Source: Tissierellia bacterium | Lineage (GTDB): Bacteria > Bacillota > Clostridia > Tissierellales > Tepidimicrobiaceae | Assembly: GCA_012839745.1 (NCBI GenBank) | Contig: DUMS01000007.1 | Location: forward strand, 1 to 64,000 | Direction: 5' to 3' | Length of the DNA: 64,000 bases | Shown: positions 10,139 through 58,498 of the stretch, piece by piece | Layout of the letters: each line of letters begins with the position of its first letter | Numbering within the stretch: the first letter of the stretch is position 1 | Translations under genes and position numbers: made by a program | The notes under the pieces: model-generated | The model's database searches: none | The model's input: only the letters and a program-made list of their open reading frames with translations | What the model was told of the DNA's origin: nothing

Positions 10139-10496
10139 GATGAGTAAATCGGATGATCGCATGCTTATTAAAGCATGAGGAAAGTCCGTGCTCCATAGGG
10201 CAGGATGCTGGATAACGTCCAGTGGGGGCGACCCTAAGGATAGTGCAACAGAAATATACCGCCTGGCACTAACTGGTTTAATGCCAGGTAAGGGTGGAAA
10301 GGCGAGGTAAGAGCTCACCAGCAGCTAGGCGACTAGCTGGCTCTGTAAACCCCATCTGGAGCAAGACCAAGCAGGGACTAAAAAAAGGTGGTGGCCCGCT
10401 ACCGTCCCAAAGGTAGGTCGCTAGAACTTATTGGCAACAATAAGTCATAGATAGATGATCATCTGAGACAGAACACGGCTTACAGATTTACTCATC
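10139..10496 (+). ncRNA. rnpB: RNase P RNA (class A)
   Basis: Catalytic RNA of ribonuclease P, which removes 5' leaders from pre-tRNAs. The ends pair as the P1 helix: GATGAGTAAATC at 10139-10150 with GATTTACTCATC at 10485-10496. Universally conserved segments are present in order: GAGGAAAGTCCGTGCTC, CATAGGGCAGGATGC, GATAGTGCAACAGAAATA, AAGGGTGGAAAGGCG, GTAAACCCCATC and ACAGAACACGGCTTAC. The layout resembles the ancestral class A RNA found in many Clostridia rather than the Bacillus class B. It has its own promoter and a strong terminator. Confidence 0.96.
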
Positions 10497-10504
10497 AAAG
10501 ACGT

Positions 10505-12575: not shown

Positions 12576-12673
12576 TGGCAGAGTAGATAGCTTGCGTTAA
12601 GTGTTAGAGGATGGAACGTTGCCTCTAAACGAAAAGCTTAAAAGCTTGCGTTAAGCTATCGCGTTCGCTGTCA
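12576..12673 (+). promoter_or_regulatory. Tetrahydrofolate (THF) riboswitch
   Basis: Matches the THF aptamer in order: GAGTAGATAG at the 5' side, the conserved TGCGTTAAGTG (12593-12603), an internal stem-loop TAGAGG...CCTCTAA, ACGAAAAGC, a second TGCGTTAAGC-like pass and the closing CGCGTTCGCTG. The outer helix TGGCAG / CTGTCA closes it. It sits about 65 bases upstream of the folate transporter start. Between aptamer and gene a dyad GATGTGGTAGTACTGCCATATC (12695-12716) and the AAAAGGAGG SD suggest control of ribosome access rather than a classical terminator. The rest of the 298-base gap (12491-12575) is AT-rich, with no other feature seen. Confidence 0.92.
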
Positions 12674-49874: not shown

Positions 49875-49891
49875 AAGTTGTCACACTTCCA

Positions 49892-49933
49892 ATGCATATG
49901 CATAATATAGTCATATACGCTTGCATATGCATA
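49892..49933 (+). repeat. Paired palindromic repeats upstream of murA
   Basis: TGCATATGCATA occurs at 49893-49904 and again at 49922-49933. As each copy is nearly self-complementary they can also pair with each other (ATGCATATGCA / TGCATATGCAT, 19-base loop), ending next to the SD TTTGGAGGTG of murA. Confidence 0.6.
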
Positions 49934-49948
49934 TTTGGAGGTGCGATA

Positions 49949-51202
49949 ATGGAAAAAATAATTGTTGAGGGTGGAAGGAAATTAACAGGAGAAGTAATTG
50001 TTTCTGGTGCGAAAAATGCTGTGTTGCCAATTTTAGCAGCTACAGTTATTGGTGCAAACGAGAGTACCATATTCAATGTGCCAAAATTAAAAGATGTAGA
50101 GGTTATGGAGAAAATATTGTTATCTCTTGGTTTAAATATTAAAAGAATTGATAATATGATGTGGATTGATTCTAAGCCTTTAAATAATATTAAAATCCCT
50201 GAAGAGCTGGTAAGAGAGATGAGGTCCTCCATTATTCTAATGGGTGCAATGCTTGCAAGAACAGGAGAAGTTATAGCAAGTTATCCTGGAGGATGTGAGA
50301 TTGGACCTAGACCAATTGATATGCACCTGAAGGGATTAAGGGAATTGGGTGCAGAAATAGAGGAGTCTCATGGTTTTATTTACGCAAAAGCCAAGGAATT
50401 GAAGGGATGCGAAATACAATTAGATTACCCAAGTGTAGGAGCTACAGAGAATATTATGCTGGCTGCTACCAGGGCAAAAGGTACAACAGTAATAAGAAAT
50501 GCCGCCAGGGAGCCTGAAATTGTAGACCTGCAAAACTATTTAAATAAGGCAGGTGCAAAAATAAGCGGCGCTGGAACAAGTGTCATAATTATAGAAGGAG
50601 TAAATGAATTTAAGGATGTTTCTCACAATACAATACCGGATAGAATTGTTGCAGGAACATATATGGTGGCTTCAGCAATTACTGGTGGAGAAATAATTAT
50701 AAAAAATGTAGTAATAGAGCATTTACAGGCAATTATAGCAAAGTTAAAGGAAGCAGGCTGTATAATATATAATGACAATAACTCTTTGAAGGTTATTGCA
50801 CCTAAGAAGATAAACTCAATAGAGATGATTCAAACACTGCCATATCCAGGATTTCCAACAGATATGCAGGCTCAAATGATGGCGCTGTTAACCATTGCAA
50901 ATGGTACCAGCATTATTTCCGAAACAGTATTTGAAAACAGATTTAAGCATGCTGAAGAACTGATAAGAATGGGCGCAAACATAAAAATTTTTGGAAGAGT
51001 AGCAGTCATTAAAGGAGTAAAAGAGCTAACAGGTGCTAAGGTTTCTGCTAAGGATTTAAGAGGAGGGGCTTCGTTGATATTGGCTGGATTGGCAGCAAGA
51101 GGGACTACTGTAGTAGACAATGTACATCACGTGGAAAGAGGATATGAGAATTTTCATTTAGTATTGGAGGGTTTAGGGGCAAATATCGAAAAGATAAATT
51201 AA
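49949..51202 (+). CDS. murA: UDP-N-acetylglucosamine 1-carboxyvinyltransferase
   Basis: 417-aa first enzyme of peptidoglycan precursor synthesis, transferring enolpyruvate from PEP to UDP-GlcNAc. SGAKNAVLPILAATVI near the N-terminus and the catalytic loop YPGGCEIGPRPIDMHL with the fosfomycin-target Cys are present. ATG 49949 with TTGGAGGTG upstream; an in-frame ATG at 49892 lies in the repeat and is unlikely. Confidence 0.97.
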   Translation: MEKIIVEGGRKLTGEVIVSGAKNAVLPILAATVIGANESTIFNVPKLKDVEVMEKILLSLGLNIKRIDNMMWIDSKPLNNIKIPEELVREMRSSIILMGAMLARTGEVIASYPGGCEIGPRPIDMHLKGLRELGAEIEESHGFIYAKAKELKGCEIQLDYPSVGATENIMLAATRAKGTTVIRNAAREPEIVDLQNYLNKAGAKISGAGTSVIIIEGVNEFKDVSHNTIPDRIVAGTYMVASAITGGEIIIKNVVIEHLQAIIAKLKEAGCIIYNDNNSLKVIAPKKINSIEMIQTLPYPGFPTDMQAQMMALLTIANGTSIISETVFENRFKHAEELIRMGANIKIFGRVAVIKGVKELTGAKVSAKDLRGGASLILAGLAARGTTVVDNVHHVERGYENFHLVLEGLGANIEKIN

Positions 51203-56027: not shown

Positions 56028-56741
56028 TTGAGAGGTTTATTTTTGAATTTAAAACTGCAATTATATAAAATTTTATATAGGATTGGTCTTTTAGATAGCA
56101 TTTATTATATAGGAAGTGGTGAGATTCTTCCTCCGCCACTGAAACCGGAGGAAGAAAGCTATTTTTTAAACAGATTGAAGTACGATAATAGCATTAAAAG
56201 CATTTTGATAGAAAGAAATTTAAGATTAGTAGTGTATATTGCAAAAAAGTTTGAGAATACAGGGATTAATATAGAAGATCTGGTTTCCATCGGGACAATA
56301 GGTTTAATAAAAGCTGTAAACACATTTAACCCTGAGAAAAACATTAAATTGGCAACATATGCATCAAAATGCATTGAAAATGAAATTCTGATGTATTTAA
56401 GAAGAAACAGCAAATTAAAATCTGAAGTGTCCTTGGATGAGCCTCTGAATGTAGATTGGGATGGAAATGAACTGCTATTGTCCGATATATTGGGAACTGA
56501 TGGAGATATTATATTTAAGCTTTTGGAGGATGAAGTGGACAAAGAACTGCTAAATCAAGCCATAGGTAAGCTTTCGAGAAGAGAAAAGACAATTGTCGAG
56601 TTGAGATTTGGCTTAAAAAGCGGAAAGGAAAAAACCCAAAAGGAAGTGGCAGACATGTTAGGCATATCCCAGTCTTATATATCAAGGCTGGAAAAGAGGA
56701 TTATAAAGCGATTAAGAAAGGAAATGGTAAAGCTTATGTGA
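56028..56741 (+). CDS. sigE: Mother-cell RNA polymerase sigma factor E (pro-SigE)
   Basis: 237-aa sporulation sigma factor made as an inactive precursor. The pro-sequence [26 protein letters not shown] (first about 30 residues) matches the region removed by SpoIIGA. Region 2 has [38 protein letters not shown] (in parts), region 4 ends with [28 protein letters not shown] start with GGATAGGGGGAG upstream, 12 bases after spoIIGA. Confidence 0.97.
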
Positions 56742-56766
56742 CAGCACTTTGCTGTCACATTTTTTA
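56736..56766 (+). terminator. Rho-independent terminator after sigE
   Basis: Stem ATGTGACAGC / GCTGTCACAT around the sigE stop codon, followed by TTTTT. Confidence 0.92.
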
Positions 56767-56774
56767 TATCTAAA

Positions 56775-56806
56775 AGTATATGGTTATTATTGGCATTGAA
56801 AAATTG
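56775..56806 (+). promoter_or_regulatory. Candidate SigF promoter of sigG
   Basis: AGTATA (56775-56780) fits the SigF -35 wGyATA exactly; a 16-bp spacer is followed by TGAAAAATTG, a partial match to the SigF -10. In B. subtilis spoIIIG is SigF-dependent. Confidence 0.5.
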
Positions 56807-56875
56807 AATAAAAAATAATAGAGCGGCAATAATTTTAAACGTAAAGGGGCAATATAGGCGAAGGGAATGAAGAAT

Positions 56876-57649
56876 GTGCATACAAATAAAGTTGAAATAT
56901 GTGGAGTAAATACATCAGAACTACCAGTATTAACTAATGAAGAAATGCAGCAGCTATTTGTTAAAATAAAAGCTGGAGACAAGGAAGCAAGGGAAAAATT
57001 CATACAGGGGAATTTAAGGCTGGTATTAAGCATAATACAGAGGTTTAACAGAAGAGGTGAAAATGTAGACGATTTATTTCAAGTAGGATGTATTGGATTA
57101 ATTAAAGCTATAGATAATTTCGACTTAAGTCAAAATGTGAGATTTTCAACATATGCCGTACCAATGATTATTGGAGAAATAAGAAGATATCTTCGTGATA
57201 ATAATTCAATAAGAGTAAGCAGGTCTTTAAGAGATATAGCATATAAAGCACTGCAGGCAAGAGAGCATCTTGTAAACAAAAACTCAAAGGAACCTACAAT
57301 AACTGATATAGCAAAGGAGTTAAATCTACCTAAGGAAGAAGTAGTATTTGCATTGGATGCAATTCAAGAGCCTATATCGCTATTTGAGCCAATATATCAC
57401 GATAGCGGAGATGCCATATATGTAATGGATCAGGTAAGGGATGAGAAATCCGAGGATGAAGTATGGTTGCAGTCAATTGCAATAAAGGAAGCCATAAATA
57501 AGCTGAATAAGAGAGAAAGGCATATATTAAATCTGAGATTTTACGAAGGAAAAACTCAAATGGAGGTAGCAGAGGAAATAGGAATCTCGCAGGCTCAGGT
57601 TTCAAGGCTGGAAAAGAATGCCTTAAGGCAGATGAGAAAATTTATATAA
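56876..57649 (+). CDS. sigG: Late forespore RNA polymerase sigma factor G
   Basis: 257-aa sigma factor with the characteristic NKVEICGVNTSELPVLTNEEMQ N-terminus (in parts), which contains the anti-sigma (CsfB/SpoIIAB) contact region. Region 2 has FDLSQNVRFSTYAVPMIIGEIRRYLRDNN and region 4 KTQMEVAEEIGISQAQVSRLEKNALRQM. GTG 56876 is chosen because GAAGGGA ends 9 bases upstream and the length matches SigG; ATG 56867, three codons earlier, is an alternative with poor spacing. Followed by ymxH without a terminator. Confidence 0.96.
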   Translation: MHTNKVEICGVNTSELPVLTNEEMQQLFVKIKAGDKEAREKFIQGNLRLVLSIIQRFNRRGENVDDLFQVGCIGLIKAIDNFDLSQNVRFSTYAVPMIIGEIRRYLRDNNSIRVSRSLRDIAYKALQAREHLVNKNSKEPTITDIAKELNLPKEEVVFALDAIQEPISLFEPIYHDSGDAIYVMDQVRDEKSEDEVWLQSIAIKEAINKLNKRERHILNLRFYEGKTQMEVAEEIGISQAQVSRLEKNALRQMRKFI

Positions 57650-57652
57650 CAA

Positions 57653-57745
57653 TAATCATTACCTCACCAAATTTTAGTAATATTTTAAATGCTTTTTTCA
57701 ATATATATAGTAATGAATATATAGGAAGAGGTGAGGTAATGATTA
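57653..57745 (+). promoter_or_regulatory. 16-bp perfect inverted repeat enclosing the SD and start of ymxH
   Basis: TAATCATTACCTCACC (57653-57668) and GGTGAGGTAATGATTA (57730-57745) are perfectly complementary with a 61-base AT-rich loop. The right arm holds the SD GAGGTGAGG and the ATG of ymxH; the left arm starts 4 bases after the sigG stop. Read-through RNA from sigG would hide the ymxH start, while RNA starting inside the loop would not. Confidence 0.75.
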
Positions 57746-58005
57746 ACTTATCTGAAATGAGGGAAAAGGAAGTCATCAATATCAGAAATGGTGCAAAACT
57801 TGGGTATATCTATGACTTTGAAATTGATTTGGAGAATGGCAAGGTTATATCTATATTAATACCTTACTATGGAAAAGTTTTAGGCTTTTTTGGAAAGAAC
57901 AGGGATTTAGTCATCCCTTGGCAAAACATATTTAAAATTGGACATGATATAATACTGGTGGATATTGATGTTGATAACACCAAAGAATTAGACAATTTCA
58001 AATAG
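57739..58005 (+). CDS. ymxH: YlmC/YmxH family sporulation protein (PRC-barrel)
   Basis: 88-aa PRC-barrel protein: MINLSEMREKEVINIRNGAKLGYIYDFEIDLENG (in parts) then ISILIPYYGKVLGFFGKNRDLVIPWQNIFKIGHDIILV. Usual place right after sigG in Clostridia and Bacilli; role in sporulation not defined. SD GAGGTGAGG directly before the ATG, both within an inverted repeat. Confidence 0.9.
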   Translation: MINLSEMREKEVINIRNGAKLGYIYDFEIDLENGKVISILIPYYGKVLGFFGKNRDLVIPWQNIFKIGHDIILVDIDVDNTKELDNFK

Positions 58006-58042
58006 ATATATTATAATCAGATATAGAAGCGGAGGTGAATAG

Positions 58043-58498
58043 ATGAACTGCCCATTTTGCAATTATCCGGAAACCAAGGTAGTTGATTCCAGGCCTACTG
58101 ATGAAGGACAAGCCATAAGGCGAAGAAGGGAATGCTTGAGATGTTTTAAAAGATTTACTACCTATGAGAAGGTTGAAAAGGTTCCTCTAATTGTTGTGAA
58201 GAAGGGGGGCAACAGACAGCTGTACGATAGAAACAAGATATTGAATGGTATGTTAAAGGCTTGTGAAAAAAGGCCTGTAAGTTTAAATAAAATAGAGGAA
58301 ATTGTGGATGAAATAGAAAAGGATTTATATAACCTGATGGAAAAGGAAGTTACAAGCGAAAAAATAGGACAGATGGTTATGGATAAGCTAAAGGAAATAG
58401 ATGAAGTATCCTACGTAAGATTTGCATCAGTCTATAGACAGTTTAAGGATATTAACACTTTTATGGAAGAGTTGAATAAACTGCTAAACGAGAAATAA
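58043..58498 (+). CDS. nrdR: Transcriptional repressor NrdR
   Basis: 151-aa repressor of ribonucleotide reductase genes. N-terminal zinc ribbon [18 protein letters not shown]...[16 protein letters not shown] with four Cys (3, 6, 31, 34), then an ATP-cone (about 49-139). Senses ATP/dATP and binds NrdR boxes. SD AGCGGAGGTGA. Confidence 0.97.

Follow-up and report, generated by a model that had tools for sequence, protein, structure and literature searches.

How can a forespore gene and a gene apparently read in the mother cell lie end to end, with no terminator detected between them, and each still act in its own compartment? The question is raised by the border between sigG and ymxH in a 64,000-nucleotide (nt) stretch of DNA from a Tissierellia bacterium (contig DUMS01000007.1 of assembly GCA_012839745.1, positions 1 to 64,000, forward strand), here called the window. 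A perfect inverted repeat at this border is most probably a cis-acting translational insulator that keeps forespore read-through RNA from sigG from yielding mother-cell YmxH. The reading is based on the structure, its covariation, a promoter match, predicted energies and the terminators that often take the arm's place in relatives. The proposed mechanism has four steps. (i) In the forespore, a sigma-F/G-type promoter of its own would drive sigG, with no terminator downstream. (ii) On RNA reading through, the left arm of the repeat would pair with the Shine–Dalgarno sequence (SD) and start codon of ymxH, and no YmxH would be made. (iii) In the mother cell, sigma-E polymerase would initiate at a promoter between the arms. 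(iv) RNA begun in the loop would lack the left arm, leaving the SD open for synthesis of YmxH. Presumably, then, read-through does occur in the forespore and is silenced, the sigma-E RNA from the loop is the translated form, and the forespore is a compartment from which YmxH has to be excluded. Leakage control between adjacent forespore and mother-cell genes is seldom studied, and sigG–ymxH offers a compact, testable case.

The inverted repeat and its fold

The elements at the border are as follows.

56867–57649, forward strand: sigG, forespore sigma factor G (TIGR02850, 488 bits)
57653–57668, forward strand: left (anti-SD) arm, confined to RNA reading through from sigG
57728–57733, forward strand: ymxH SD, GAGGTG, assigned by inspection
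57730–57745, forward strand: right arm, holding part of the SD (its GGTG), the spacer, ATG, codon 2 and one further base
57739–58005, forward strand: ymxH/ylmC, PRC-barrel sporulation protein (PF05239, TIGR02888)

The left arm, TAATCATTACCTCACC, begins 3 nt after the sigG stop and is complementary to the right arm, GGTGAGGTAATGATTA, at 16 of 16 positions, with 61 nt between them. The original prediction, made from the letters of the window, is correct in placing a perfect 16-bp inverted repeat here, close behind the sigG stop and over the SD and ATG of ymxH. Its phrase 'across 61 bases' holds for the distance spanned by the loop and not for the length of the complement. Among perfect 16-mer inverted repeats with arms at most 130 nt apart, the 64 kb window contains just one more, a near-palindrome with 2 nt between its arms. 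Ranked by upstream anti-SD complementarity, ymxH comes first among 65 start sites of the window (z −7.2; runner-up −4.4). RNA 57640–57800 folds at −35.3 kcal/mol, against −22.3 ± 3.4 kcal/mol for shuffled sequences (z −3.8; 0 of 200 shuffles as good). The predicted cost of opening the SD–ATG region is 23.5 kcal/mol in RNA from sigG versus 4.3 kcal/mol in a short RNA whose 5' end lies about 24 nt upstream of the ATG, and the medians over 44 loci are 15.4 and 2.6 kcal/mol. These values support the earlier proposal that the fold hides the ymxH start on the long RNA, but not on RNA initiated in the loop.

Conservation and covariation of the arms

Homologues of ymxH are found in 47 of 61 genomes, with more across the wider order and class. 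Almost all genomes of the window's family (Tissierellaceae-like) have bases after the sigG stop that complement the SD/ATG of the same species' ymxH, and members of several further families of the order also carry a post-stop arm. The letters of the paired arms differ from case to case (ATCATTACCTCACC with GGTGAGGTAATGAT; ACCATTACCCCA with TGGGGTAATGGT; ACCATTGTTTCAC with GTGAAACAATGGT; AATACCTCACCA with TGGTGAGGTATT; TTGCTCACCTT with AAGGTGAGCAA), and some families have a stem of quite unlike letters (TAGCCTCCCTTCTTTA with TAAAGAAGGTGAGGCTA; loci L028, L133 and L049). When 24 arms are aligned, 89% of cells are paired, against 30–56% when the arms are slid by 1–3. Two-sided changes are seen at 9 of the 16 pairs (33 such cells; shuffled mean 11), the covariation score of 0.305 is above all 500 shuffles, and swapping left arms among species gives 278 ± 5 Watson–Crick pairs versus 317 for cognate arms (0 of 20,000 permutations as high); registers in these covariation and swap tests were picked to maximise pairing, and the species share ancestry, so that the figures are not probabilities. 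The original prediction had staked itself on a left arm conserved in relatives with compensatory changes: the arm is kept, and the covariation is strong. It makes the sigG–ymxH hairpin a candidate entry for a catalogue of RNA families.

The same alignment bears on the idea that the repeat is a DNA site, either for a dimeric regulator or as a promoter dyad, with no role in RNA. A promoter flanked by arms would suit such a site. The arms, however, invariably end at the SD and ATG and co-vary in letters with them, codon 2 included; G–U pairs are present and kept in the stem; and arms of different families have little sequence in common. A DNA-binding dyad is set aside because the arms track the SD/ATG and the G–U pairs persist, and it is barely credible as an explanation.

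A predicted mother-cell-type promoter in the loop

The 61 nt between the arms contain a predicted promoter.

57677–57684, forward strand: ymxH −35 element, GTAATATT, in the loop; the identical octamer occurs in several SpoIVA promoters
57699–57708, forward strand: ymxH −10 element, CAATATATAT, sigma-E-like (p 0.007 versus dinucleotide shuffles)

The gene spoIVA, which we take to be a sigma-E (mother-cell) gene, has promoters of the form RTCATATT/GTAATATT-N13(14)-CATATATA in the same genomes. A matrix trained on these promoters, with a spacer of 13–15, was compared with one from SASP (sigma-G) promoters. Sites of SpoIVA type are found at p < 0.05 in 87% of 52 ymxH gaps, usually ending about 30 nt upstream of the ATG, and sites of SASP type in 4%. 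In the window the −35 element is followed after 15 nt by AATATATAT (57700–57708), with C at 57699, and the pair resembles the promoters of same-family sigma-E genes, with matching spacing. Transcription of ymxH is predicted to start near 57715. The internal promoter that had been proposed for the loop thus has a conserved SpoIVA-type match; its mother-cell (sigma-E) type had not been seen, nor had the forespore character of the sigG unit or the terminators common among armless relatives. A first guess, a sigma-G-type promoter in the loop, was dropped: SASP-type matrices perform at chance level, whereas SpoIVA-type matrices fit.

In families other than the window's, a box WWRRACARNY (for example TAAGACAAGT and its variants) lies in the ymxH promoter spacer. 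The TAAGACAAGT-type box has a near-constant place, ~48–59 nt before the ymxH ATG, in L025, L053, L056, L059, L066, L086, L150 and L162. It resembles the SpoIIID consensus.

Published regulons agree with a mother-cell assignment. For Clostridioides difficile CD2641, upstream of nrdR, the listed features are sigma-E control, a sigma-E promoter and an operon CD2641–CD2639 (PMC3789822); from synteny, CD2641 is presumably the ymxH orthologue. The gene ylmC is reported to be sigma-E-dependent in Bacillus subtilis and Clostridium perfringens (PMC9332280).

An RNA switch or thermosensor, in which a signal opens the stem and the long RNA then makes YmxH, is a further way to read the fold. A long-looped stem that covers the SD and ATG could act as a switch, and a second hairpin is present in the loop of L007 and some others. 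An Rfam search, however, returned no match at or near the gathering score for the sigG–ymxH site, the promoter accounts for the conserved part of the loop, and the stem is very stable. Such a sensor is very unlikely.

The stem does not have the same position everywhere. By eye, genus g2 (L021, L022) has lost the old post-stop arm and carries a new stem whose left arm is inside the promoter spacer, between −35 and −10, and which covers the SD; this is apparently the device re-evolved. Family f5 (L030, L151, L152, L155, L159) has, between the ymxH −35 element and the SD, a long hairpin whose loop contains the −10 element.

Hairpin or terminator

A terminator search downstream of the window's sigG detected none. 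Among 100 distinct sigG–ymxH gaps, each at least 55 nt long, a significant anti-SD arm (z <= −3) is present in 37, mostly in the window's order. A terminator is detected in 1 of these 37 arm loci, leaving 36 without one, versus 28 of the 63 armless loci (Fisher 2e-6, uncorrected for kinship). The counts are rough, because the automatic arm score overlooks arms within the promoter spacer (L021, L022 and members of f5, among them L155 and L159) and the terminator detector overlooks some evident terminators. Both solutions occur within single families: f13 has an arm in L024, L135 and L146 and a terminator in L031, and f5 an arm in L152 and L172 and a terminator in L161. Loci in which a terminator has taken the place of the arm (L029, L031, L053) retain the SpoIVA-type promoter. 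Evolution appears to trade the hairpin for a terminator at this border, and either device would presumably block YmxH synthesis from sigG read-through. The intrinsic terminator of other Clostridia is in the same place, presumably with the same insulating job; it halts transcription, whereas the window's hairpin would act on translation. The window's border would then be closed at translation and not at transcription, and co-transcription of sigG and ymxH is not to be taken as co-expression.

Several findings weigh against insulation. A ribosome at the sigG stop, blocking 12 nt, reduces the predicted cost in the long RNA to 13.7 kcal/mol (median 8.3 kcal/mol), and insulation may leak because of this drop from 23.5 kcal/mol. 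With the left arm just 3 nt past the stop, every terminating ribosome would disturb it. A few relatives lack both a clear arm and a terminator. The −10 element of ymxH has a high A+T content and is weaker than its spoIVA counterpart. Finally, related sequences are non-independent, so that the test figures overstate certainty.

The first two points could also be read as translational coupling, in which the left arm is opened by ribosomes completing sigG, the ymxH SD becomes accessible, and the sigG message yields YmxH in parallel with sigma-G. In many species the left arm is close enough to the sigG stop to be reached by a ribosome there, and the 12 nt block lowers the opening cost in most loci. 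The distance from stop to arm is nevertheless not kept short and fixed, as it varies from 3 to about 45 nt (L023, L027). Relatives often have a terminator where the arm would be; a terminator would abolish coupling, and its presence therefore speaks against it. A sigma-E-type promoter is kept within the loop, and in other species expression of the gene depends on sigma-E (PMC3789822, PMC9332280). Coupling is rather unlikely, and insulation remains the preferred reading.

Relation to known systems

In the fold-back inhibition of IS10/Tn10 and in the early read-through transcripts of gene e in phage T4, RNA begun upstream folds over the start site, whereas transcripts of the gene's own promoter leave it free. 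These are genes of mobile elements and phages; unlike ymxH, they do not lie between the cell types of a developmental programme.

A closer parallel is sigG (spoIIIG) of B. subtilis, where a hairpin of 20+ bp is proposed to block translation of spoIIG read-through and is absent from RNA of the sigG promoter (PMC5942855, which describes it from Masuda 1988 and Sun 1991). Arms that bury an SD against read-through translation, named in the original prediction as a known device, are thus on record, and the ymxH site is counted with them because the same device is reported for B. subtilis sigG. Like the B. subtilis hairpin, that of the window would not form in RNA begun at the predicted promoter of its gene; it has an SD-complementary arm upstream of that promoter and a stem conserved with compensatory changes. 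The B. subtilis hairpin, however, guards sigG against spoIIG read-through, whereas that of the window would guard ymxH, one gene downstream, against sigG read-through. The window also differs in its predicted mother-cell promoter in the loop, for the opposite compartment, and in a sigE–sigG border closed by a terminator. A second, 5-bp hairpin at the ribosome-binding site of B. subtilis sigG also hides the SD in a sporulation mRNA (PMC5942855), but it sits within the short transcript and dampens always; the window's short transcript is free. A report of such a hairpin for ymxH/ylmC, of which the original prediction knew none, was not found in the open literature either, most subscription papers being outside coverage. 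The device is known, and the ymxH hairpin is a well-supported new instance of it.

Flanking units and other features

Gene order in the window is spoIIGA, sigE, terminator (56736–56760), sigG, ymxH, nrdR and pgeF.

56736–56760, forward strand: intrinsic terminator behind sigE, ATGTGACAGCACTTTGCTGTCACAT then TTTTTT; upstream boundary of the sigG unit
56805–56834, forward strand: sigG promoter, forespore type (sigma-F/G), TGAATA-N14-GGCAATAATT, assigned by its recurrence upstream of sigG
58043–58498, forward strand: nrdR, the gene after ymxH

A terminator like that behind sigE is also visible in several relatives, and 24 of 25 sequences carry TGAATA-N14/15-GGNAATAAT/ACT 5' of sigG. Because this conserved element, TGAATA-N14-GGCAATAATT in the window, fits the known sigma-F/G consensus, sigG appears to be a forespore transcription unit by itself. 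The gene is listed from ATG 56867; the real start is possibly GTG 56876, suggested by the spacing to the SD and by the length of 257 amino acids in relatives. A sigma-A-like promoter, TAGACA-17-TATAAT (11/12), lies at 57989–58017, at the end of ymxH and before nrdR.

Elsewhere in the window, the murG–murA gap (about 49875–49951) has a conserved, imperfect stem over the murA SD, TTGTCACACTTCCAA with TTGGAGGTGCGATAA, including an inner ATATGCATA/TATGCATAT-like part. Complementarity there has z −3.4 to −6.5 in family relatives and is weaker in others. The left arm overlaps a likely sigma-A promoter, TTGTCA-N17-CATAAT. The same logic of read-through silencing may apply at murG–murA. A broader proposal, that SD hairpins silencing read-through are recurrent, repeatedly re-evolved unit separators in this order, replacing terminators at sigG–ymxH, in other species through arms inside the promoter spacer, and at further borders such as murG–murA, is tentative and somewhat doubtful. 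The window also holds a tetrahydrofolate (THF) riboswitch (12577–12672) and an RNase P RNA (10141–10498).
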